This document shows, one piece after another, positions 49,631 to 64,000 of a stretch of 64,000 nucleotides of DNA. The notes beneath the pieces are model-generated. The model was not told the origin of the DNA and ran no database searches. It was given only the letters and a program-made list of their open reading frames with translations. How positions within the stretch are numbered: the first letter of the stretch is position 1; each line of letters opens with the position of its first letter. Source of the stretch: Adineta ricciae. Its lineage: Eukaryota > Rotifera > Eurotatoria > Adinetida > Adinetidae. Position numbers and translations under genes: made by a program. The stretch is taken from positions 1 to 64,000 of the forward strand of contig CAJNOJ010000353.1 of NCBI GenBank assembly GCA_905250025.1. Reading direction: 5' to 3'.

Positions 49631-51486
49631 ATGCATTCAGCTCTCAGGTTTCGTTATATTCAAATAATTATATGTGACGTACTCATACGAGATTCTAATT
49701 TAGGCCAAAACCTACGATTAAATTACCTCCATCACTGATTCCACCAGCAATCAATCATCATCCACAGCCAATAGTGAAGAGATCTTTTCTCAAACAGAAT
49801 TCTCTTGTCAATGGTAATGGTCACCATAGCACTTGTTCTACAGCGAACAATGCAACGATTGAAAAACTCTATTGGTCATTGGGTTTAATCAGTTCCAAAG
49901 GAAAATATTTAACTGCCGAAACGTTCGGTTGCAAAATCAATGCTAGTAATTATTTTCTAACAAATATTGGAAGAATGGTCTATTTCTTACCTTCTAGCTG
50001 GCACATCGTTGAAACGAAAACAAAAGTGGACGATTATCTATAATATTCCAAATGATTGTGTTTATCTCCAATCGCCATTGAATCGTTATTTATCAACTGA
50101 TAAATATGGTCGATTAAAATGTGATATGCACGATATCGATGATGATTGTCGTTTTCAACTTGAATACAATCGAGATGGACAATGGGCTCTGAAATCTGTT
50201 ACGTATGGTATGTACTTAGGCGGTGATAACGATCAATTGCACTGCTTTAGTAAAACACCAGAATGGTGGTCACCTCATTTAGCTCTCCATCCACAGGTAT
50301 AAACATTTCTTTGTATTGTTCATATTCAAGAGAAATTCTCGTCTTTTTTTTGTTTAGATTAATCTGAAACACGTACTTCGAAAACGTTACGCTAAGTTAG
50401 AAGATGATGAGATTCATATCGATGAAATTATTCCCTGGGGTAGCGATGCGATCATTGCTGTTGAATATCTCAATGATCATTACTGTATTCGTTCGAGTAA
50501 CGGGTACTATTTCCACAAAGATGGCAAATTATCGACCGAACAAACAGAAGAAACATTATTCACGATTGAACTTCATAAAGGATACATCACATTCAAAGAT
50601 TGTGATGGCTGCTATCTCACAGCTATCGGTCCACTAGGCATCATGACAACAAGAAATCGAACAGCTGGCAAAGATGAGCAATTTCTCTTAGAAGAAAGTA
50701 AACTACAAATATGCTTAGTGGCACCCAATGGTAAACTTGTTTCGATCAAACAAGGAATTGATCTATCGGCGAATCAATACGAACGTGATCAGAGTAGTAT
50801 ATTTCAATTAGAATATGACGATGATTTACAAGCTTATCAGATTCGAACCTATGACAATAAATATTGGACGATCGGAGGACTGAGTATACAAGCAACAGCG
50901 GAAAAAAAGTAAGACGACGAAGAATTTCGTGACGAGTTCTAATTGACTGATCAAATTTAGGTCAGTAGAGACAAGTTTTCATATACAATCTGTCGGCCAC
51001 GGACACGTCACATTTCAAGCATCAAACGGCAAATTTATTGTTCCACACGCTTCTGGAAATATGCGTGCTGTTTCCGATCAAAACAGTTTACCTGATGCTT
51101 ATTTTCTGCTGAAATTCATCAATCGACCATTTTGTGTATTTAAATGCGATTTTGGTCATGTTGGTTACCGGAACAAACAATCACGTGTTCTCGAGTGTAA
51201 CAAAGCTCTGTTCACATTATTTACATTAGAAGAAGCAGCTGAAGAAACTCATAGCGAAGGAGTTGTTTATTTGAAAGGTTCCGATGGTCTCTATTGGGAA
51301 ATATCAAATGATTTGAATATTAGTGTCAGTGGTTGTGAACCATCGAAATTTTCATTAGAATTATGTTGGTCATCATCTCGCGTCGTTATTAAAGCACCAA
51401 ATGGAATGTATTTACGCGCTGAACAAAGTGGAAGTATCCAAGCGATATGTCAAAATAGTCGACAAGCAACACAATGGGAGTTTTAG
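49631..51486 (+). CDS. FSCN1: Fascin (actin-bundling protein)
   Basis: Cross-links actin filaments in filopodia. Five exons close in phase to 544 residues: 49631-49647, 49704-49945, 49998-50296, 50358-50908, 50961-51486. Four beta-trefoil domains are visible. Trefoil 1 begins WSLGLISSKGKYLTAETFG and continues NATGTSLKRKQKW, which keeps the serine before the basic cluster that protein kinase C phosphorylates in human fascin (S39). Trefoil 2 begins at HPQINLKHVLRKRYAKL and includes ITFKDCDGCYLTAIGP. Trefoil 3 has QGIDLSANQYERD and YDNKYWTIGG; trefoil 4 has ASNGKFI and FINRPFCVFKCDFGHVGYR, ending in QWEF. An N-terminal extension of about 50 residues (Pro/Ser/Asn-rich) precedes trefoil 1. The 17-nt first coding exon is the weakest part of the model: its donor is GTTTCG. 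Confidence 0.93.
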
Positions 51487-52199
51487 TTGAATAATTCCCT
51501 TTCGTTGTTCATCTCTCGCTTTTTTTTTATTCATTCTTCTCAACACAATTAACCATCTATTATGATCCTCAGGTCAATACAACGCTGTTATTGTGTATGT
51601 GTATGCGAAAAGATAGATGTATGAGAGAATTTTGTTTGCATAAGTCTCATCATTCAGAGTGAAAGAGAAGCATGAATTGTTGTTGACATTTTGTCTTGTT
51701 CTGCAGAAAAGAAAGGATATGTTTTGTTGTTTTTTTTATCTTGACTGTGAAAATAATCTAGAAGTGTAGTTGATTTAGCAATGACCCCGTTGGTAGTGTT
51801 CATATTTATATTTTCTCCCTTTTTTTATGGTGATTTATGTATGAGAAAATGAATATCTGGAAATTTGAACTGTTTCTTAAGCAGTAGGAAACAAATGGCA
51901 GAATATCTTATCTCTTGAAGAATGAAAGCACGCCTCAGTTCAACTAATCGGATACATCGAATGTGTCATGCTTTCTCACGATCCGATCTGATTCGATATT
52001 CAATGATCAACGATATAAATATATTTTATCTATCGAATTATTTCTTCATGCGATTATGCCTACTCTTAGTAATAACTTCATCTTCGAATTATCTGCCATT
52101 AAAAAAATCGTTTTTTTTTTCTATAAAAATAACATTTTTTCCATTCAAGCACACACACACACACACATTTAGTTGTTAATTCTATAAAAAAAAACTTCT
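51487..52199. other. Convergent intergenic region after fascin
   Basis: 713 bp, T-rich, with a (CA)n tract at 52150-52166 next to the end of the minus-strand gene. No gene seen. Confidence 0.6.
52150..52166. repeat. (CA)n microsatellite
   Basis: Short CA repeat in the 3' flank of the minus-strand type II membrane protein gene. Confidence 0.8.
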
Positions 52200-53411
52200 T
52201 CATGTAAAGACTTCTCGACGTGTGACATTGGCCGCTAATGAACGTAGAGCATCTAAAGTCAGTACTTTTGATTGTAAAGCCATCAGCGTTGCGTATTCTC
52301 GTGCGACATAAATATTAAATGGTTCTTTGTCATAACCATCATAAGCATTTTGACGAAACATTCGTTCGGAAAACAAACTTGTCGAATGTGCGTAACATTT
52401 CAAATGATAAATATACGTACGATATGTTGTCAATGTGGAATCACAAGGTATGTCAACTTGTTTTTCGGTGAATAGAAAACGTGTTTGTAAAGCTTCGATA
52501 GTTGATGCGTAGTCAATCGAAGAGCTTTTCGATTCAATTCTTGGATCTTTTAATGTTTTCAATAGTGTCGAAACGAATTCATAAACTTGTTCAGTTTGAC
52601 CATAAAATGTGGAATAATCCGGTGATGTACCAAGAATAAACGCACATTTTACTGGAATGTATTTTCCAAATTGTGTTGTCAAGAACGTATTCATCGTTGT
52701 GACCATAAGAATATCGTACAAAGTTTCGTTCGTTCTCAATCGACTGATATAAGAATGAACAGCGAATAGGCGATCAACGTTGTCACTTAGCTCTCCAGCA
52801 CGATTGAGCATTGGGGAGATTTTCAGATAGTTTTCACGTTCTTTTTGTGTTCGTTCAGAATATAATTGATGTTGAACAAGAATACATCGTGAGATTTGCC
52901 GACGAGATGTGCGTTCGTTTTCCGATCGACAATTCAGATGTTCCAACAATTGTTGGGTCTCGTTGTCGAACTCTTTATCAATAAGAATGATCAGATCCGT
53001 GCGCCATCGATCGAGCGTAAACATTTCCGATTCGATCCAACTACGATAGAGCCAACGGAATTGTACGAAGTAATATCTCGCTCTCAGCGATGGGAAACGA
53101 ACGATCACGCCGCGCACAACCGAACGTGTACGATAATGGTCGATAGTCAACGCTTTATCTCGACATTCTATTAATGATCTATCCACCTCTTTCGTCGTCA
53201 CAGTCGTAGTTGAGGTCGTCTTTTTTGTTACTATTGGATACTTACGAGCGACTTCGAAAGTGATAAACTGACTATCTATATCTGGATGCTCGGATAATCC
53301 ATTATCATTCCAATGATACGATGGAGTGTAAAAGTGAAGTAGAAAAACTAGAAAGACGAGCGCTGCGGCTCCGTAGACTAGCAAAGACGAGACAGTTTTT
53401 AAACGAAACAT
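52200..53411 (-). CDS. Single-exon type II membrane protein, glycosyltransferase-like, family not named
   Basis: Intronless gene for 403 residues. The N-terminus has a short cytoplasmic part (MFRLKTVSS) and one signal anchor of about 20 residues (LLVYGAAALVFLVFLLHFY), then a Thr-rich stem (TKKTTSTTTVTT) and a soluble domain. This is the layout of Golgi glycosyltransferases. The lumenal part starts RGVIVRFPSLRARYYFVQFR with WLYRSWIE, then RWRTDLIILID, and later CAFILGTSPDYSTFYGQTEQ. These fit an alpha/beta fold that acts on a nucleotide sugar, but I see no clear DxD motif and cannot assign a known family with confidence; it may belong to one of the DUFs of animal Golgi proteins. The region before it (53412-54228) is shared with a divergent gene. 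Confidence 0.75.
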   Translation of the reverse strand: MFRLKTVSSLLVYGAAALVFLVFLLHFYTPSYHWNDNGLSEHPDIDSQFITFEVARKYPIVTKKTTSTTTVTTKEVDRSLIECRDKALTIDHYRTRSVVRGVIVRFPSLRARYYFVQFRWLYRSWIESEMFTLDRWRTDLIILIDKEFDNETQQLLEHLNCRSENERTSRRQISRCILVQHQLYSERTQKERENYLKISPMLNRAGELSDNVDRLFAVHSYISRLRTNETLYDILMVTTMNTFLTTQFGKYIPVKCAFILGTSPDYSTFYGQTEQVYEFVSTLLKTLKDPRIESKSSSIDYASTIEALQTRFLFTEKQVDIPCDSTLTTYRTYIYHLKCYAHSTSLFSERMFRQNAYDGYDKEPFNIYVAREYATLMALQSKVLTLDALRSLAANVTRREVFT

Positions 53412-54228
53412 AATGAGTAAAGGTAAGAGCAGTGAAAAAAGTGTGACCGAAAAAATGCGGCCTTCGTTCTGTTCTGTTTCTTCTACAGGAATATTTATTG
53501 ATCCGTCTAGTTATAGAAACAGAACGTCAAAGAAAAAATAATAAACGATTCATTTGAAAAGTGTGTTTTAGCGACTACCATCTATCCGCTGAAAGCTACT
53601 TACCCTAAAGAATCTATTTTACACATTGAAAACTGATATGCGTAAACGTTTCTGATTGCATCATACAATAATTTTTATTAAAATATCTTACATGACGATG
53701 GAAATTTGACTTATTTCATTTCCTTTCATGAAAAAAGATTCTCTATCTTTAGTCGACTTATGTTAAGCTCATTTTTTCTCTTTAATATTCTAAATGCCAT
53801 GAATTTGTAACACTCGACTGTTTTCTTTTATGAAATGTAAACGCGGAAATGTCCAATAAAACTTTTTACGTCTCGCGTGATACGGAAAATGCTTTTTAGA
53901 ATTGATAAATTCACGCTGACAGGTATCGTTGTTTAGAAACAAGCTCGACTAAATTTCACATACTATTTTACATCTATGTACATTGAGATTATTCAAGAAA
54001 TAGATAACGAGCATAGTACAACACAATACTCAAAATTATTTTTTATCATTTTTGTGTCAATTGTAGTTCAATGAACGAAAGCGACATCTGCCTAACGTCC
54101 TTCGTTAATCTGCTTCGATATTGGTTAGATTATTTTCCATTTGAAAAAATCTATTAAAAACGAAGCAAACTGATGATCTTTGACATTGTTGAGCCGATTT
54201 CCATAGACGTTTCTGAATTTGGTTTCTC
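53412..54228. other. Divergent promoter region
   Basis: 817 bp between the minus-strand type II membrane protein gene and the plus-strand Cys/His-rich gene. AT-rich without coding text; probably promoters for both. Confidence 0.55.
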
Positions 54229-55687
54229 ATGTCATCTGATGTGATCGTTTGTAGTGAAACAAGTTGTTCCAGTACTGATACATTTTTATGTGTGAAACAT
54301 TGTCAACGATATATTTGTTTTGAACATTTGCAAGAGCATCACCGTTTGTATGAAAAAGAAAAAAACGATTTACCGAAAGAACTGCGTCGACAAGTTCAAC
54401 AACGATTCGTCCTTTACAATAGACTGATCGATGAAACAAAACTAGATGAACAAGAAAAACGGGATATTGAAATAGCATGTACAGAAATCCAACGCACATA
54501 TAAACAACGTCGACGTGATCATCTTCAATTACACTCAGAAGGAGCATCGCTCTTAGAATCCTCGTCGACTACACAAGATCTCCAAGCATATTTAGATAAA
54601 TTACACGTAGCTATTGAACGTGAACAACAGCGAGAACGTGTCTACGCCAATTCAGATGCACCAACGAATATTAAAGTTGAACCAGACGAATTCATGGATA
54701 GTGAGAATATTCATTCTAACCATATTATTCCTATTTCATGTAAATAGCGCGCCGATGTATCAATAATTTGCATTGAAATTCTTTGTATATGTTTAGTATC
54801 GAAGAGTGGAAGTCTATCGACGGAAAACAAAGACAATAAATCTGACGAGTAAATCACAATTATTCATATTGATAGGAAAGTTTTCTTCTGCTCTGTTTTA
54901 TAGTTTATCCGGCGAAGAAGCTGGACGAAGCGAGATAAATTCCAGTGATATTGACGATGCTGATTCGGTAAGAAGACTAGCCATTGATGAGTTGAGTCGT
55001 AATTTTCGATTCATTTAGGAAAATGATGATCATCGTGCAAATTCATCGAATCGTCGATCATTTTCATCGGCAAATTTGAATCAATCCGTGACGATTTATC
55101 GTGGAGCTTGTCCATTGACACGTGTCGGTCTGTTTGGCATTCTTCCAATTCACAACATTCGATTATGCGAAGGAAAACCAAGTTGTCTCTATAATCATCT
55201 ACAAAGTTTTCATCATATGACAGCTCGAAGTGCGTACAAAGTTTGCAAAGCCGTTTTGAAGCAACGTGATCCTGTCGTAACCGTCCTGTTCAGTTCGCAA
55301 GATGTTTTATACAACAAGAATTTTCACATTGCTTGTCCGTTCAATCAAGATTCGAGAAATCTGTTCGATTGTCAACCGAAATATATCGTGAAAGCACCAT
55401 GCTCGTCGATTATCTCACGTTTAGATATGCCACGACACTTACGTGACGTTCACCATGTCTATCGAGCAAGCGCGTTGAAGATTGTTGCTGAAATGCGACG
55501 CTGTGCAAAGAATTCAAGTAAAAATCATCCTATCCAGTTGAATCGGAATCTGTTTGCAAAAGATGAAAATATCATTGAACTAATTAACGATAAATCTAAT
55601 TCACGAGTAATGAATAATACTTTCATTCGTACTAGATCTGACACTTCGATATTTCAGGTTTCTAAACAAGCAAAACGACACAAGTAA
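54229..55687 (+). CDS. Unrecognised Cys/His-rich protein with B-box-like N-terminus
   Basis: Four exons close in phase to 431 residues: 54229-54739, 54797-54848, 54904-54967, 55019-55687. The first 45 residues have CSETSCSSTDTFLC, then VKHCQRYICFEH and HLQEHH, a spacing of Cys and His that resembles a B-box zinc finger. A helical, charged region follows (about residues 45-145), probably a coiled coil, then an acidic disordered linker. The second half has two further Cys/His groups: CEGKPSCLYNHLQSFHH and CPFNQDSRNLFDCQ with PRHLRDVHHVY. These look like degenerate C2H2-type fingers. The ending KQAKRHK is basic. I do not recognise the full family; similar architectures occur as multigene families in bdelloid genomes, which is an inference from memory, not from this sequence. 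Possible role in nucleic-acid or protein binding. Confidence 0.7.
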
Positions 55688-55887
55688 TCGTACGATGCAT
55701 TCATTTTCGTTCAATACTCAGATACGGTCGTGTTACAATTGCTCGATCTTGAATTTCTATGAAATTTTTTCTTTCTTTTTTCTTGTTGTGCATGTCAAAT
55801 TTGTATTTCTTCTCTCCTCAAGTAATGTGATATTCTTCTAGCTTTGTTTACGTATTCAGTGATGATGTAATTTGTTGTTTATATAGT

Positions 55888-55907
55888 TTTTTTTAATTGA
55901 ATTTCAG
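55888..55907 (+). promoter_or_regulatory. Splice-acceptor-like site directly before the F-box start codon
   Basis: A T-rich tract followed by ATTTCAG ends at 55907, and ATG starts at 55908. No upstream coding exon joins it, so it is either the acceptor of a 5' UTR intron or a spliced-leader trans-splice site. Confidence 0.55.
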
Positions 55908-56774
55908 ATGAAATATTGTTCGTCATTTGACAATTTGTCTAATGAGTTACTGTTGGAAATATTTGATTATTTGGACGTTTACGACCTTTTCCAAGGATTC
56001 TTCGATATCAATCAACGACTGAATTGTTTGATTACGGATCGACGTCTTTGTTTTCAAGCAAATATGTTTCAGCTCAGTTCGAAGCAGTTTTCTCTTTATC
56101 AAAATGTTATCCTTCCAAAAATTGGTCAATATATCCGTTATTTATCGATTTCGGACGAGTCGAATCGTCTGCGAATCGCTCTGCAATCGCTTGTATTCGT
56201 AAATTTACAATCAGTTCGATTGTATGATGTTAAACTGAACGAATTAAAACAAGTCTTGAATACTTCCAAACTGAAATCGATCTCGATTGATACAAATTAT
56301 ATTCAAAATGAACAACATTTGTATGAAATTTTCAGAAATTTATTACAAGATCAAGAAGATCTACGGTCGATTGAATGTGATTTCCATACGAACTTGTTCT
56401 TCATCAAAGAAAAATATCGTCCAAGTCAAGTTAGAAGAATTGTTATCAATTGTCCATGTTTTTCAAGTGATTTGATTATTCTGATTTGTCAGTTACCGAA
56501 ATTACGTTATCTAAATGCGAATATCAACGACGATAAACGAGAAGTTATGGATAAAGATGTTGATTATCTATCAGGAAATGAATCGCTTCGTTCATTGACA
56601 CTTCAAATTGAAAATGTTGAACTCGATCGTCTATTACTCATCTTTTCCTTGACAAGCAACGTCCGAGTACTTGAATTGAATGGTACAATCGATTTCGACA
56701 TCAATTATCTACTTGAATTCGAAAGAAATTATACATCATTCCGATGTAATCTCAAACATTATCTTCTTTTTTAG
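55908..56774 (+). CDS. F-box protein with leucine-rich tail
   Basis: Intronless gene for 288 residues. The F-box is at the N-terminus (about residues 6-45): FDNLSNELLLEIFDYLDVYD and LFQGFFDINQRLN. It would bind SKP1 and recruit substrates to an SCF ubiquitin ligase. The remainder contains irregular leucine-rich repeats (VFVNLQSVRLYDVKLNEL, LPKLRYLNANI, NVRVLELNG), a plan common in the large bdelloid F-box family. It is shorter than many relatives, so the repeat region may be truncated. The stop codon TAG (56772-56774) lies two bases before the ATG of PIGO, and no polyadenylation signal is possible between them. Confidence 0.85.
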   Translation: MKYCSSFDNLSNELLLEIFDYLDVYDLFQGFFDINQRLNCLITDRRLCFQANMFQLSSKQFSLYQNVILPKIGQYIRYLSISDESNRLRIALQSLVFVNLQSVRLYDVKLNELKQVLNTSKLKSISIDTNYIQNEQHLYEIFRNLLQDQEDLRSIECDFHTNLFFIKEKYRPSQVRRIVINCPCFSSDLIILICQLPKLRYLNANINDDKREVMDKDVDYLSGNESLRSLTLQIENVELDRLLLIFSLTSNVRVLELNGTIDFDINYLLEFERNYTSFRCNLKHYLLF

Positions 56775-56776
56775 AT
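56756..56776 (+). promoter_or_regulatory. Candidate trans-splice acceptor overlapping the F-box stop codon
   Basis: The pyrimidine tract CTTCTTTTTTAG ends with the AG of the F-box stop codon TAG (56772-56774). The PIGO ATG begins at 56777. A spliced leader joined here would leave a 2-nt 5' UTR. The alternative, a 29-nt cis-intron that fuses the two proteins, is discussed under rejected items. Confidence 0.5.
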
Positions 56777-59077
56777 ATGGATTTCAGATTTTTATCTCTT
56801 CTTGCGTGTTACCTTCTCGGTTTGGCTTTCTTTCTCAATGGATTTCTATTAACGCGCCGTGTTATCTTGGAAAATTCTACTGGTACAATACCATCAACAG
56901 TTCCGCTCGAGTTTAAACAAGTCGTTTTTATTGTTATTGATGCACTTCGTTATGATTTTATCAAGCCAACGAAAAATCTCAAGATAACAAATTACCAAAA
57001 TCAAATGCCGTTCATTCGTGAACTACTCCAAACCCGACCACAACAATCTGTTCTATTGAAACTCTTAGCCGATCCTCCAACCACTACACTTCAACGTTTA
57101 AAGGCTCTAACAACTGGAACATTGCCAACATTTATCGACATATCTTACAATTTCATTGGATACGAAATCGAAGAGGATAATCTCTTAAATCAGCTACAAA
57201 CCAGTGTCTATCAACGAAATATTTCCTTGTTAGGTGATGATACATGGTTGGCACTTTATCCGAACATTCCATTTAAACATTTACATGTTTATCCATCGTT
57301 TGATGTGCATGATTTGGATACAGTTGATAATGGTATCCTTGAACATCTATGGAGAGTTCTCGAAGATACTCGACATGACGAATATTCGTTTGTGATTGCA
57401 CATTTTCTCGGTGTGGATCACTGTGGTCATCGATATGGTCCGTTGCACGCCGAAATGAAACGTAAACTAAATCAAATGGATGATGTGATGCGAAATTTAA
57501 CGAGAAAACTAGATGAGTTTGACTCACCGTCGCTTCTGATGGTGATCGGTGATCATGGAATGACTCAACAAGGTGACCATGGTGGTGATGAGTTAAATGA
57601 AATCGAAACTGCCATGTTTCTCTACACAACGAAAGCCAACTACTTTCCATTAGTGAACACAAACGAACAAGTTGTGTCTCAGATTGATCTCGTTCCAACA
57701 CTCTCGTGGTATCTTCACATATTAGTACCATTTTCGAATGTGGGGATGATGATTACAGATCTGATTCCATTGGAACAACGTTTTCAAGCGATGAAATTAA
57801 ATTTTCAGCAAATGGATGCATACTTAGCCGAGATATCTTTGACATTACCATTATCCGATGATATACAAAACTTACGGGCTAATTTGCATACGATATTCGT
57901 TAACAACAAAGAGCGAAATGCGACTATAGTTGAGAACTTATTCAATGAATTTAAACATAAACTACAAACACATTTTCGTCGTCAATGGTCAACATTTAAT
58001 ATTCCTCGAATTCTTACTGGATTGTTCATCATGCTCATTTCATCGACAATCTTGTTCTTCGTCTACTTCAACGTCTCAAAATATCTCAATGATTATTCCA
58101 ATGTTATCTTTTATATTTTGCTTGCATTCATGTACTTCGCCATATCATTTTCGAATAGTTTTATAATCAATGAAGCAATGTGTCTTTATTTTCTAATTCA
58201 AACAATTGTTTTACTCTCAAATCGACGATTTTACGAAAAACTTCTCCTTTCACTTCTATTATTTCTTTCTCGAGCATTTCTTATCTGTCGTGAAGAACAA
58301 CAACCCTATTGTCTCGATCCCGACTGGCTTCTGTCAAAATCCTTGAATACTTCCGAATATGTTCTTCCATGTTTATCTGCAATTCTTTGGTTTATTATTC
58401 TTTACTTGACACCAAACTATTCCCATCTTTCATATTTAACCATCGTTGCTTATTGGTTCAACATTCCACATACATTACCGATATTCTATCTAAGTATTCT
58501 CGTTCAGATTTGTTTTGTGATCTACAGACCATCTCGTTTCGATACTCTAATTTATTCAATTCTAATCTTTGTTGTTGGCTATCGATTTTCATTCGTGATA
58601 TTTCTGCAATATTTTCTCTATAGAATTCTTTTCGAGACAAGTGGTCAGTCTATACCGTTATTGTTTTCATTACTATCCGACTATTTCTTTTATGCAACTG
58701 GTCATCAACCTGTGATTTCGCAAATCCGTTGGACAGCTGCATTTCCAACGTTAAATTCGCCGATAAACGCTTATCTTTCATTAGTGATGAATTCGTTGAT
58801 TCTTCGTGGAATTTTCGTTCTCATTGAAACCTTTTCCGGTCAGATATTAAATGTGATATTCATTCGAAAAATGCTCCGAAAAACCTCTGATACGACTTTA
58901 TTAAAGCGTGTTTTGATCGTTGATTGTTGTAAATTACTCACAACTTCGTTGAGTGTGTTTCTTTTACGAAGACATTTGATGTTATGGAAGATTTTTTCGC
59001 CGAGATTTTTATTTCAACTCGTAGGATTCGTGATAAAATGTTTAGTTGTTTTTCTAACAATGAAATTAGGAAAATGA
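56777..59077 (+). CDS. PIGO: GPI ethanolamine phosphate transferase 3 (PIG-O)
   Basis: Transfers phosphoethanolamine from phosphatidylethanolamine to the third mannose of the GPI anchor in the endoplasmic reticulum. Intronless, 766 residues (human PIGO 1089). A signal-anchor helix (LLACYLLGLAFFLNGFLL) is followed by the alkaline-phosphatase-type lumenal domain: VVFIVIDALRYDF (metal-binding Asp), TTTLQRLKALTTGTLPTF (nucleophile Thr region), FLGVDHCGHRYGP and IGDHGM with QQGDHGG (metal-binding Asp and His). About ten or more hydrophobic helices fill the C-terminal half, and the family landmark FYATGHQPVISQIRWTAAF is present near residue 640. The protein is shorter than human PIGO, mainly in the membrane half. 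Its ATG follows the F-box stop by 2 bp and its stop precedes AP2S1 by 32 bp. Confidence 0.93.
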   Translation: MDFRFLSLLACYLLGLAFFLNGFLLTRRVILENSTGTIPSTVPLEFKQVVFIVIDALRYDFIKPTKNLKITNYQNQMPFIRELLQTRPQQSVLLKLLADPPTTTLQRLKALTTGTLPTFIDISYNFIGYEIEEDNLLNQLQTSVYQRNISLLGDDTWLALYPNIPFKHLHVYPSFDVHDLDTVDNGILEHLWRVLEDTRHDEYSFVIAHFLGVDHCGHRYGPLHAEMKRKLNQMDDVMRNLTRKLDEFDSPSLLMVIGDHGMTQQGDHGGDELNEIETAMFLYTTKANYFPLVNTNEQVVSQIDLVPTLSWYLHILVPFSNVGMMITDLIPLEQRFQAMKLNFQQMDAYLAEISLTLPLSDDIQNLRANLHTIFVNNKERNATIVENLFNEFKHKLQTHFRRQWSTFNIPRILTGLFIMLISSTILFFVYFNVSKYLNDYSNVIFYILLAFMYFAISFSNSFIINEAMCLYFLIQTIVLLSNRRFYEKLLLSLLLFLSRAFLICREEQQPYCLDPDWLLSKSLNTSEYVLPCLSAILWFIILYLTPNYSHLSYLTIVAYWFNIPHTLPIFYLSILVQICFVIYRPSRFDTLIYSILIFVVGYRFSFVIFLQYFLYRILFETSGQSIPLLFSLLSDYFFYATGHQPVISQIRWTAAFPTLNSPINAYLSLVMNSLILRGIFVLIETFSGQILNVIFIRKMLRKTSDTTLLKRVLIVDCCKLLTTSLSVFLLRRHLMLWKIFSPRFLFQLVGFVIKCLVVFLTMKLGK

Positions 59078-59087
59078 CAAATCGAAT

Positions 59088-59109
59088 TCGCTTTGATTCT
59101 AGATCAACT
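59088..59109 (+). promoter_or_regulatory. Candidate trans-splice acceptor between PIGO and AP2S1
   Basis: The 32-bp spacer between the PIGO stop (59075-59077) and the AP2S1 ATG (59110) contains CTTTGATTCTAG, with AG at 59101-59102, followed by ATCAACT and the ATG. There is no room for a conventional promoter or 3' end in the spacer. Confidence 0.55.
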
Positions 59110-59806
59110 ATGATTCGATTTATTCTCATTCAAAATCGAGCAGGAAAAACACGATTAGCAAAATGGTATGAAGGAAAAGTTTGTCTTGTTTTTTTGAACG
59201 TTTTGAATTTTCGTTTTGAATAGGTTTATGAACTTTCATGATGATGAAAAACAAAAATTGATCGAAGAAGTTCATGCTTTAGTCACTGTACGCGATGCGA
59301 AACATACAAAGTAAGTGAAGAAAGAAGTTTTGTCAATTGGAGAAATGTATTTTGCTTGTTTTTTTAGCTTCGTCGAAGTATGAACATTAAAATTGATGAA
59401 ATGTTTCTGAGATTCTTTGTTTGTTTAGTTCCGTAACTTTAAAATAGTCTATCGTCGTTATGCTGGTTTATATTTTTGCATCTGCGTGGATGTGAATGAT
59501 AATAATTTAGCTTATTTAGAAGCAATTCATAATTTTGTCGAGGTTCTTAATGAGTAAGTTGAAGGTAAACTTTCGGTATATTGATGTGACCTTGATTTTT
59601 TGTCGAAAGGTTTTTCCATAATGTCTGCGAACTGGATTTAGTCTTCAATTTCTACAAAGTAATGCGAACTTTGCTCTGTTGCTCGTGTTATTCTGTCTTT
59701 TCAGGTTTATTCGGTCGTCGATGAAATGTTCCTCGCTGGAGAAATCCGAGAAACTAGTCAAATCAAAGTTTTAAAGCAACTTACAACATTAACATCACTC
59801 GAATAG
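59110..59806 (+). CDS. AP2S1: AP-2 clathrin adaptor, sigma subunit
   Basis: Small subunit of the AP-2 complex that recruits clathrin and binds dileucine sorting signals at the plasma membrane. Six exons close in phase to 142 residues, the same length as human AP2S1: 59110-59165, 59224-59310, 59368-59377, 59429-59553, 59610-59658, 59705-59806. Nearly every residue matches known AP2S1: [73 protein letters not shown], and [20 protein letters not shown]. The first arginine-rich stretch (residue 15 region) that contacts the acidic part of the dileucine signal is intact. Exon 3 is just 10 nt (CTTCGTCGAA). AATAAA at 59952-59957. It lies 32 bp after PIGO on the same strand. Confidence 0.97.
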
Positions 59807-60126
59807 ATGAATTCCCATCAAATTTTATTCTTTCGATTAATATTTATCGTTTGATTGAGTAGTCGTCATTCCTCTAGAGATATCCACGTACGGTGTTCTT
59901 TCTCTCACCATTTTTATGTGCAATAGGATGCTGTTGTCTTGTCTTTTCAAAAATAAAATCCAATCAAAACATGAAAAGAATTTCAGTTCGGAACTATTTG
60001 TGTTTTGCGAAAGATAACTTGAAGAAATGTGTGGGAATAAGCTTGAAAGAAGTCCTTTTCTTTTAGATAACATAGCAGATATTGACTGGAGTTAGAACAA
60101 TCGATTGATCGGTGCTTTTTGTCATC
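59807..60126. other. Intergenic region between AP2S1 and COASY
   Basis: 320 bp. It holds the AP2S1 AATAAA (59952-59957) and, at about 60052-60066, a strong acceptor-like tract TCCTTTTCTTTTAG, 60 bp before the COASY start. That tract may end a 5' UTR intron or be a trans-splice site. Confidence 0.55.
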
Positions 60127-62079
60127 ATGACTGAGAAAAACATCAGACGATTTCAAACGGCACTTCTGCTAATAACAAACCCAATACGCTCGCGTATTCC
60201 ATCGATCCTATCTGCAGTCATTCCGTATGTTGAACGAAATCTGTACATTGTTGTTCAAAATCTCCATACGCAGGCATCAAACGCTTCACCAGAAAGATTC
60301 TTCGATCGAGAACAACAAAAACGATGTATACGTCCAATGTTACATGCAATTTATAAACAAGTGACGTCCACGAAGAATCCTTCAGTTGATGTATTATTGC
60401 ATAATGTCGATTCAGTGATCAAGTCAACCAATCCATTACGATTGCCTAGTCTATGCGAAGCTGTTTTTGCTGATTGTTCACCATCGCCGGGATTGTACGA
60501 TTATTGTCGAAATCATTTCCATCAATTAGATCAAAATTTCGAACTTCGTACAATCGATGAGAAAGACGGAAAAGAAGATCAACTGATTGAGAATTCATCT
60601 ACAAGGGAAAACGACTTATTCAGTCATAAATCCACAACTCCATACAATCGAGGAGTTCTTGGTGGTATGTTTCGTGAAAATGACACATCTTACATCTGAT
60701 ATCTGTTCTCGATTAAGGTACTTTTGATAGATTACACAATGGCCACAAACTGTTACTAACCGAAAGTGCTCTTCTTTGCGATGAGAAAATCGTCGTTGGT
60801 GTTACTGATGGAATCATGATACAAAACAAAGTATGTTCTCTTCAAACTTTTCATCGGCATGAATTCATTTCAAACTTATGTCAATTACGTAGGTATTAGG
60901 AGAAATTATCGAACCGGTTGCTAAACGTATGTCGAACGTCAGTTCGTTTGTTTATTTAATTCGACCTAGTATTCATGTTCATTGTGAACCAATTGAAGAT
61001 CCGTGCGGACCATCGGCAACTATGCCAGATTTGAATGTAATATTGTTTTTCTTTTTCCATACGGATACAATGTGATGATTTAGTGTATTATCGTTACTGA
61101 AGAGACTCAACAAGGTGCTGCACAGGTGAATAAAGAACGAGCGGAAAACAAACTTTCTCAATTACCAGTACATGTCGTATCAATGGTTCCAGCCGACGAA
61201 GATAATCTCGACGGTGACATTAAATTGAGCTCGACGTCACTTCGACGAGAAATGCTTGGCACTCTCCTTCGACAACCTTTGGTAGAATAGATTTGTTTCT
61301 TGTTTAGTATCGCGTCATTCTTATCGTTTTTAGAAAGCTAGTGAACCAAATCGACCATACATTATTGGACTTACTGGTGGCATAGGATCAGGAAAGTCAA
61401 GCATTGCACGTCGCATAGAAAAACTTGGTGCCGCTGTTGTTGATTGTGATAAATTAGGTCATGAAGCGTATAAAGTCGATACTGATGCGTATAGAAAAGT
61501 CATCGAAACATTTGGAAATGACGTTATCAATCCTACTGACCGTTCCATTGATCGGAAAATACTCGGCCAAAAAGTCTTTCAGTCGCCCGATGAAATGAAA
61601 AAACTAACCAACATTGTTTGGCCTGCGATATTAAACTTAGCACAAGAACGTATCGAACAATTCTTTCAACAAGGTAAAATAGAAAATTTCCCAAGAAAAT
61701 CTACAGTTCATTCATCCAGGTAAACGCATCATTGTACTTGATGCAGCTGTGTTACTTGAAGCAAAGTGGACCGTTGCAGTCAATGAAATATGGATTGCAT
61801 CGATTCCTCCAAAAGAGGTCAGTTGTTGATAACATGCTTCTATCAGATTTATTCATAAATCTTTTCTCATAGGCCATTCGACGCGTTGTCGAAAGAGATC
61901 ATTTATCAGTCGAAGAAGTAAAACGCCGTTTGGACGCGCAAATGTCGAATGAAACTCGATTACCATATGCTAATGTTCTTCTTTGTACTTACTGGGCTGA
62001 GAGTATTACCCAGAAACAAGTTGAACATGCTTGGCAGTTACTTTTACAACGCATTGACAATGACGCGTCTTCCGTCTAA
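60127..62079 (+). CDS. COASY: Bifunctional coenzyme A synthase (PPAT + DPCK)
   Basis: Catalyses the last two steps of coenzyme A synthesis: adenylyl transfer to 4'-phosphopantetheine, then phosphorylation of dephospho-CoA. Seven exons close in phase to 545 residues (human 564): 60127-60664, 60718-60830, 60893-61036, 61084-61281, 61334-61673, 61720-61817, 61873-62079. The N-terminal 150 residues are a regulatory or accessory region. The adenylyltransferase domain has GGTFDRLHNGHKLLL, the nucleotidyltransferase T-x-x-H-x-G-H motif, and ends near SSTSLRREM. The kinase domain has the P-loop GLTGGIGSGKSS, then AAVVDCDKLGHEAY and VVERDHLSVEEVKRRL. Both active sites look intact. The start at 60127 is the first ATG in frame; an alternative upstream TTG is not preferred. 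Confidence 0.95.
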
Positions 62080-62754
62080 TTCCATTCCGTTTACTCTGCT
62101 CATTCTTATTTTTACTTCATTTATTTTCCGATCGTTATCGATTATGGATTTTTCTGTTTGATTATTTATATTCTAGTGTTCAGAAAAGAAAAAAAAATGA
62201 TTGAATATGTTTCTGAAACATTGTCAATATGATTTAACAAACATGTTTCCGTTTCTCGGATCTATATTTGCAATTCACACCGCATTGATATCTTATGCCA
62301 CGGCTGGCGTGTTACTACTCTAAATAGCACTTTCCTAAGATAGTTATAGATGTACTGTGGCTCAATCGTTAAGAGTGACTTCATTATTTTACTGTGCTCT
62401 TATATATGTTAATGTATTCGCCCCATTTTGATTACTTCGTCATACAGAAATTGAATCAGTAGGCTATGCAACACGTTTTTAAAGTAAGATTGCCTCATGC
62501 GCTTCTGGTGTTCCGTATACACTCGATGAAATGTCATATATTTTAGTTGCCTTCGCTCGATTATCGAATGATTAGTCATTAAACAATTACAAAAAAAATA
62601 AGCATGGGGTCGATGCTTTTTTTTCTCATCACTTAGTTTATCCCATGCTCAGATAAGTGTTGATTCGAGTTTGCTGGAAAGCAAATATATGATGAGAAAC
62701 TATTGCAGCCGTCGCTAGTATCTTCATGTGTATATCTGCTAATGTATCGTTTCT
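62080..62754. other. Intergenic region between COASY and the secreted intronless gene
   Basis: 675 bp without coding text that I recognise. It should contain the COASY 3' end and the promoter of the next gene. Confidence 0.6.
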
Positions 62755-63732
62755 ATGATCAATAGATTCACAATGTGGATGTTAATCTTTGTACTGACAG
62801 GTTGTATCGCATCTCTTACTAGCGGGCAAGCTCCATCAGATGATGCGCGCCATAAACTGGTATCACTGATCGGTGATGTACGTGGCGCTGACGGACGTCG
62901 ATATGCCTCACGTGATAATCTTGGAAACACTATGGACTGTGTGAAGATCATTAAACGAACTGATACCGAACAATTTATTGGAGTTTATCATACATATGTT
63001 AATAATGTGCCAAGAGTGAATTTAGCTGTATCAGATGATTTGTTAAATTGGACGTGGCTTCGCGAATTAGCCTATTATGGCTCACAACCGACAATTGTTG
63101 TACCTGCTGATCAACCTCAAGGCTACATAGTTGCTTGGGAACAAGAACCGAGCAATCACTTACGTTTTTCTTTTTATCTCACATGGTCCGACTTACAAGC
63201 TGGCACCTCTAAACTAAATTATTCTGTTCCACGTACATTGTCCCGGTGCGCTGAAGGCACACCCAACATATACGGTCAACCCACATTGAATAATATTGAT
63301 GTCGGCTTTCATTTTTATGATAATTGTATTGTTGATCGACAAGCTCGTGCAACATTGAAAAATTTCAATCTATGGGTTCAAATTAAGAAACAACCCAATG
63401 TTGATAATGCTTTACTTCATTACGGCGTACAAGGTAATATCGGTGATCGTGATGCTATTTCAGATTTCAATGGTTACGCATTCACTGCCATCGAGGGACA
63501 ATATACACCAAAAGATTTCGGCACTTGGCGAACATTCATTTTTGATCCTCAAACAGGCAATGCTGATCAAGTGACTATTGTTACCGATAAAGGCAGTCAA
63601 GCATTTGCAAATCCAACCATAACATTGACAACATGGAAGGGTGAACGTATTCTGATCGTCACTCTTTTCATTCCCAGTGAACAATCAGCACCCGGTGAAG
63701 CAGGTGAACTCATCTATTATCGTAAATTATAG
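62755..63732 (+). CDS. Secreted intronless protein, beta-propeller (GH43-like) fold suspected
   Basis: Single exon of 325 residues. A signal peptide is clear (MWMLIFVLTGCIASLTSGQA, cut near residue 26), so the mature protein is extracellular. The body is rich in short beta strands and aromatic turns: FIGVYHTYVNNVPRVNLAVS with DDLLNWTW, then QPTIVVPADQPQGYIVAWEQ, SDFNGYAFTAIEGQYTPKDF, WRTFIFDPQTG and GELIYYRKL. Sequence of the type AVSDDLLNWT is usual in five-bladed propeller glycoside hydrolases of the GH43 kind, but I cannot place the catalytic acids and the family is not certain. Lack of introns among intron-rich neighbours, plus a secretion signal, is the usual profile of a horizontally acquired gene in bdelloids; that origin is an inference. 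An in-frame ATG at 62773 would also give a signal peptide. Confidence 0.75.
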   Translation: MINRFTMWMLIFVLTGCIASLTSGQAPSDDARHKLVSLIGDVRGADGRRYASRDNLGNTMDCVKIIKRTDTEQFIGVYHTYVNNVPRVNLAVSDDLLNWTWLRELAYYGSQPTIVVPADQPQGYIVAWEQEPSNHLRFSFYLTWSDLQAGTSKLNYSVPRTLSRCAEGTPNIYGQPTLNNIDVGFHFYDNCIVDRQARATLKNFNLWVQIKKQPNVDNALLHYGVQGNIGDRDAISDFNGYAFTAIEGQYTPKDFGTWRTFIFDPQTGNADQVTIVTDKGSQAFANPTITLTTWKGERILIVTLFIPSEQSAPGEAGELIYYRKL

Positions 63733-64000
63733 GCTATTTTTCTTTCGTATTTCAAGTATTAAAAATAATGAATCATACTATACTCTTCAGCCCGAATTGA
63801 CCTTTTGATAATTCAATGACTATAGTATATTTGATTGGCGTGTCATAACGCAAACAGTTTTGACATATTTTTAAATATGATTTTTATTGAATTGAATTGA
63901 AAGAAATAGATTAAAAATTCAATATACAAAACAAACGTTATGTCACTCACTCTATTTCAATCGCTCATCTGACTTGAGGAGAAAATTCATCATAAACGAA
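63733..64000. other. Right-edge flank
   Basis: 268 bp of AT-rich sequence after the secreted protein gene; nothing coding is visible before the window ends. Confidence 0.5.

Follow-up and report, generated by a model that had tools for sequence, protein, structure and literature searches.

The first 64,000 nucleotides of contig CAJNOJ010000353.1 from the bdelloid rotifer Adineta ricciae (assembly GCA_905250025.1), referred to here as the window, carry three consecutive genes on the forward strand, which code for an F-box-like protein with leucine-rich repeats (LRRs), for PIGO (glycosylphosphatidylinositol, GPI, ethanolamine phosphate transferase 3) and for AP2S1 (the sigma subunit of the AP-2 complex). 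A spliced-leader (SL) operon, in which a common transcript would be resolved into single mRNAs by leader addition, is probably the best explanation for the arrangement of PIGO and AP2S1, and the role of the F-box gene as first cistron is somewhat less certain. The anatomy of the trio is confirmed by the analysis and the mechanism is what we infer from it; gap-free SL operons themselves are an already known kind. The surroundings of the window were covered by the 130.46 Mb genome assembly with its 1033 contigs.

A sequence-only reading of this DNA had described three unrelated genes that share a strand and are separated by 2 bp (F-box gene to PIGO) and 32 bp (PIGO to AP2S1), and its coordinates are exact (Table 1). 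The three open reading frames (ORFs) each lie in a frame of their own, three frames altogether, and that no room is left for promoters between the genes is visible in the sequence. The same reading had placed an AG acceptor within 10 nt of each start codon, and such AGs are indeed present, ending at 55907, 56774 and 59102, i.e., 0, 2 and 7 nt 5' of the respective ATGs. Their strength was judged with a weight matrix built on short cis-introns (67, not including the joints in question) and against chance, for which we counted how often an equally good AG lies within 10 nt of the 8,159 ATGs that the two strands of 190 kb of the genome contain. The PIGO acceptor (5.64) exceeds the 95th percentile of cis acceptors (5.58) and is equalled at 0.06% of ATGs; the AP2S1 acceptor (2.28) falls between the 25th percentile (2.01) and the median (3.14) and is equalled at 1.4%; the AG at the F-box start (-0.30) stays below the 5th percentile (0.31) and is equalled at 6.5%. 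By these chance rates the acceptors of PIGO and AP2S1 stand out and that of the F-box gene does not, so that this part of the earlier description holds for two of the three starts. Six of 65 other predicted starts have an AG scoring at least 2; among all ATGs the share is 1.7%.

For PIGO, this strong acceptor is combined with a short upstream stretch (56561-56740) that holds no good cis donor: its best GT scores -0.16, which falls in the bottom 1.5% of the 67 true donors. The strongest GT ahead of AP2S1, at 59021, is fair (score 1.10, 22nd percentile), and joined alone to 59103 it loses the AP2S1 frame according to a hand calculation. Furthermore, the AG of the PIGO acceptor is formed by the last two letters of the F-box TAG stop. 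When the tail of the F-box gene was simulated from its residues and codon usage, a TAG stop coinciding with an acceptor of PIGO strength arose in 0.31% of 20,000 draws.

Distances between genes were obtained with a purpose-written gene finder, trained on 190 kb of the genome and run at two cost settings. The first setting returned the F-box gene and PIGO with the ends listed in Table 1 and AP2S1 with the listed start and a shortened 3' end, and the second fused all three genes in frame, using 56683, 58953 and 59021 as donors. Earlier versions of the finder had over-spliced or fused genes, and the last of them only seeded the final training. In the fused parses of the earlier model, 56775 served as a cis exon start in all three settings and 55908 and 59103 in one of three; the fused parse of the final model used both 56775 and 59103. 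Among 68 predicted genes scoring at least 10, 46 gaps separate genes on the same strand, eight are convergent (minimum 69 bp) and eight divergent (minimum 817 bp), and no divergent or convergent gap is shorter than 50 bp (0/16). With 23 further loci added, the same-strand gaps come to 54; some of these loci overlap or are alleles, and a few gaps have therefore probably been counted twice (the value 1063 occurs two times).

Five of these 54 gaps are shorter than 50 bp, measuring 2, 19, 22, 32 and 41 bp. The 2 and 32 bp of the trio are the smallest real ones, and the other three were, in our judgement, produced by the finder cutting single units. An apparent second operon on the same contig (86992-89149, gaps of 22 and 113 bp) consists of pieces that resemble one gene, which we take to be a phosphoglucomutase, cut by the finder. 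At 82500, the gap of 41 bp separates parts of a single, presumably transposon-like element, one piece of which had no match in a Pfam scan, and the 19-bp gap (locus L024) divides one F-box-like gene that is whole in a near-identical copy (L020) and whose protein likewise had no Pfam match. Positions 81523-85287 of the same contig hold pieces of a helicase-bearing element, which we assume to be Helitron-like.

Trans-splicing of a leader in bdelloids was reportedly described by Pouchkina-Stantcheva and Tunnacliffe in 2005, and the SL RNA genes of this genome carry the same leader exon. The 23-nt bdelloid leader exon, as given in Table 1 of PMC3795323, matches the genome at 46 places with up to three mismatches, and its reversed pattern at none. 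The exact 23-mer has no match in the genome; 41 of the 46 differ by one mismatch (a first base T instead of G), three by two and two by three, so that the genomic exon equals the published leader in 22 of 23 bases. The 20 loci listed represent 12 distinct SL RNA genes, all 12 of which have a GT directly 3' of the exon. Joint folding of 11 of them (nine distinct sequences) predicts a first hairpin in which the exon end is paired with the donor site. Of the 30 predicted pairs, 6 covary, both sides having changed in one row or more; the copy at L025 breaks, as aligned, five pairs in the second hairpin, and one copy folds better than all of 200 shuffles (z -5.38). As judged by exon, donor and predicted fold, SL RNA genes are present in this genome. 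The deviating first base suggests that 22 nt of the leader are templated and that the cap is the source of the G published as its first letter; at the SL RNA genes, the genomic base 5' of GCTTATT is T where the published one is G. Many SL RNA genes stand in head-to-head pairs, mostly about 153 bp apart and otherwise 371 or 467 bp, on contigs C6, C8, C43, C77, C79, C99 and C146 (e.g., L051:1178-1352).

The starts of PIGO and AP2S1, on which the spacers depend, are supported by the proteins themselves. Residues 1-142 of spliced AP2S1 align to residues 1-142 of AP-2 sigma (E 2.9e-85), and this end-to-end alignment fixes the start; the match to AP-1 sigma is much weaker (6.4e-40). PIGO matches the Pfam family Phosphodiest above its cut-off (50.6 bits, cut-off 23; 2.9e-13) and PIGO_PIGG below it (21.3 bits, cut-off 27; 1.5e-4), and a PDB sequence search with the protein returned no relative at 0.001. 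Many hydrophobic segments form its membrane region, and its start is supported by an N-terminal segment that is hydrophobic from the first residues and by the nine preceding open codons, which contain no in-frame ATG. The catalytic motif reads GDHGMTQQGDHGGDE in the PIGO of the window versus GDHGMIDQGGHGGSSNEE in paralogues on contig C484, which resemble PIGG by this motif if, as we assume, the motifs are rightly assigned to PIGO and PIGG.

For the product of the first gene, the Pfam matches to F-box (18.6 bits, cut-off 20.5; E 0.0017) and LRR_14 (22 bits, cut-off 40) both remain below cut-off. A structure predicted from nine sequences (mean pLDDT, a local confidence score, 74.7; pTM, its global counterpart, 0.70; residues 1-20 of low confidence) consists of two N-terminal helices followed by alternating strand/helix repeats. 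Searched against the PDB, it gave six matches at E <= 0.001 with modest query TM-scores (structural similarity) of 0.36-0.51, with COI1, NLRC4 and TIR1 on top and FBXL17 and SKP2 lower, and F-box-like/LRR is a fair name for the gene, with a plausible predicted fold.

Table 1. Features of the three-gene region and its neighbours (positions in the window; aa, amino acids)
Feature	Position	Strand	Remarks
Upstream neighbour gene	54229..55687	+	four predicted exons, unknown family, finder score 63
AG before F-box ATG	55906..55907	+	weak acceptor, score -0.30
F-box-like/LRR gene	55908..56774	+	single exon, 288 aa, coding score 39.5; ATG 55908, stop TAG 56772-56774
PIGO acceptor, polypyrimidine tract and AG	56757..56774	+	score 5.64
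PIGO, GPI ethanolamine phosphate transferase 3	56777..59077	+	single exon, 766 aa; ATG 56777, stop TGA 59075-59077
AP2S1 acceptor in the 32-bp spacer	59085..59102	+	score 2.28
AP2S1, AP-2 complex sigma subunit	59110..59806	+	six exons (hand-set), 142 aa; ATG 59110, end of stop 59806
AATAAA	59952..59957	+	145 nt 3' of the AP2S1 stop
Coenzyme A (CoA) synthase-like gene (dephospho-CoA kinase domain)	60127..62079	+	Pfam CoaE 9.1e-26 in 61334-61672

The upstream neighbour lies 220 bp 5' of the F-box gene and may or may not be part of the same transcript; its last exon has 18 other matches in the genome, at 26-38% identity. The CoA synthase-like gene probably lies outside the three-gene unit. An Rfam scan of 50000-64000 gave no match, an NCBIfam search gave nothing beyond the other profile results, and a bacterial-type promoter scan, which is not designed for animals, found 6 hits versus 11.4 expected.

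In the proposed operon, one promoter 5' of the F-box gene would drive a single transcript through the F-box gene and PIGO and past AP2S1. Addition of the leader at 56774 would yield a PIGO mRNA consisting of leader, AT and ATG, and addition at 59102 an AP2S1 mRNA with 7 nt between leader and ATG. The unit would end 3' of AP2S1, for which the AATAAA at 59952 is a possible signal. Neither AATAAA nor ATTAAA occurs in the final 150 nt of the F-box gene or PIGO, or between the upstream neighbour gene and the F-box gene; just 22 of the 68 predicted genes carry AATAAA within 250 nt 3' of the stop, and the missing signal at the F-box and PIGO ends is therefore weak evidence. As the AG is common to acceptor and stop, leader splicing at 56774 would remove the F-box stop, and a single precursor could therefore not simply yield normal F-box and PIGO mRNAs. 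In the SL1-type operons of Caenorhabditis elegans, 3' end formation and trans-splicing are mutually exclusive. The F-box protein may be made from molecules left unspliced at 56774, with the F-box and PIGO mRNAs as alternatives, or else the F-box mRNA might be cut just 5' of the AG and the stop rebuilt by the tail. Such a cut between T56772 and A56773, after which poly(A) would restore the stop (U + AA) and one precursor would give both mRNAs, is in our estimation rather improbable. We know of no tail-completed stop from an animal nucleus; in nuclear genes they have been described in Blastocystis (PMC4159000).

Other routes to the same arrangement have to be weighed against the operon. PIGO and AP2S1 may each be transcribed singly from promoters within the preceding coding sequence, with the leader possibly still added, and the compactness of the genome would suit this; it is nevertheless unlikely, as these promoters would lie in the F-box and PIGO coding sequences, and promoters seem to take space here, given a smallest divergent gap of 817 bp among eight pairs. 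Cis-splicing of a transcript from one promoter, with PIGO and AP2S1 mRNAs formed from an upstream 5' exon or as fusions, would find the acceptors equally usable, and one finder setting prefers exactly such an in-frame fusion. Its donors are, however, poor to fair (56683 in the bottom 1.5%, 58953 lower than every one of the 67 true donors, 59021 at the 22nd percentile), another parse uses a donor at 56467 that reaches the 6th percentile, and the frame lost between 59021 and 59103 is regained in the fused parse only with the second, very poor donor at 58953. Cis-splicing is, as judged by these donors within the F-box gene and PIGO, quite improbable, and AP2S1, which is conserved from residue 1, also argues against it. 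The same conservation speaks against an mRNA that stays polycistronic and is translated by re-initiation on the downstream ORFs. The 2-bp spacer and the ATGA at 59074-59077, in which an ATG of the AP2S1 frame shares letters with the PIGO TGA, would fit this route, but that start would add 12 residues to AP2S1 and re-initiation past long ORFs is rare in animals, which leaves it with very little probability. Finally, the closeness may be due to chance, with a decaying or recently inserted F-box ORF that happens to end by PIGO. The gene has many relatives (at least 128 matches including itself, the best other one at 31% identity over 209 residues) and no second copy, and its last 30 codons are weakly coding, contributing 2.4 of a coding score of 42.6; the intact frame of 288 codons, the coding score of 39.5 and the plausible F-box/LRR fold make this hardly credible as an explanation.

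The SL operon that the sequence-only reading had proposed fits best, through the SL RNA genes, the strong PIGO acceptor without a good donor nearby and tiny gaps that are unique to this locus within the sequence covered, and several observations nonetheless weigh against it. The acceptor of the F-box gene is weak and indistinguishable from chance, and an AG at least as good as the median acceptor appeared in 19.6% of the simulated F-box tails. The strong acceptor-plus-ATG pattern TTYTTTTTTAGNNATG is not enriched genome-wide (29 matches versus 32 for its reversed form), and what carries the argument is therefore acceptor and gap taken together, not the motif. The gap counts stem from a small sample, 190 kb with 68 genes, and from the first finder setting, which was chosen since it separates the three genes; the finder also split the phosphoglucomutase and CoA synthase genes, shortened AP2S1 and missed a TRIQK-like gene. 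The trio, moreover, is found nowhere else in this genome.

Gene order in a homologous copy, as the earlier reading had envisaged it, offers no support. The genome search gave no second copy of PIGO, of the F-box gene or of the first exon of the CoA synthase gene; the other PIGO matches, at two places on C484, share 34-39% identity. AP2S1 occurs at three other places, two with 73-74% identity and a fragment with 77%, and PIGO and its neighbours are absent from the 19 kb and 39 kb around other AP2S1 copies, which have other neighbours. Since only AP2S1 has other copies of high identity, a comparison of the trio across copies is impossible. AGs at the other AP2S1 starts score 0.21 and -0.48, with none at the third; in the same matrix the copy in the window scores 2.13. 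The first exon of the copy at L047 is damaged, and a further copy at L049 ends after exon 2.

Two other close pairs are further candidate operons. At L045 (C134) and L047 (C332), which are 94% identical over the last 350 nt of AP2S1, AP2S1 is followed after 131 and 133 bp by a gene resembling TRIQK (Pfam score of 22.4 bits, under the cut-off of 27). The AG 21 nt 5' of its start codon scores 0.01 in one copy, where it is thus weak, and 2.75 in the other; by eye, the TRIQK frame on C134 runs into a stop. In addition, a YRDC (Sua5) gene (Pfam 147.7 bits) at L024 (C24) and L020 (C35) is followed at 84 and 85 bp by an F-box-like gene whose ATG has a good acceptor AG 12 nt upstream (scores 3.8 and 3.6); the two copies are about 95% identical. 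These amount to two candidates and not four, as each pair probably represents two alleles.

Comparable layouts are known from other animals. The median intercistronic gap of tunicate operons is given as 1 bp in Ciona and 31 bp in Oikopleura (PMC7986045), similar to the 2 and 32 bp at this locus, and a further likeness to Ciona intestinalis and Oikopleura dioica would be that one leader serves monocistronic and operonic genes. The SL1-type operons of C. elegans, which are rare, often lack an intercistronic region, much as in the trio, and have been likened to those of Ciona (PMC7986045). In contrast to the trio, which is known from sequence alone, the tunicate leader has been seen in RNA reads, and phylum and leader differ in the tunicates as nematode SL1 differs from the rotifer leader. 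Chaetognaths, which are gnathiferan relatives, likewise have very short gaps: three bases separate the poly(A) site of ribosomal protein S14 from the PCNA acceptor in Spadella cephaloptera (PMC2481426), and genes less than 250 bp apart were taken as candidate operons in P. gotoi (PMC12460157). Other genes are involved there, and several leaders are in use, whereas nearly all copies in A. ricciae carry one exon. Table 4 of PMC2481426 enters operons in Rotifera as ND, and the open-access literature searched yielded no described bdelloid operon; a single sentence of PMC12460157 names rotifers among the lineages with trans-splicing and operonic transcription, and specialists may therefore be aware of rotifer operons already.

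For a functional link among the three proteins, which the sequence-only reading would have joined in one transcript, no evidence was found. Should PIGO and AP2S1 mRNAs turn out to carry the leader, bdelloids would become a further group of animals, beside tunicates, nematodes and chaetognaths, in which leader-resolved operons are documented, and the documented bdelloid operons would include gap-free ones. The trio would also serve as a warning for annotation, since genes of this kind may be fused by a gene finder, which happened here in some settings.

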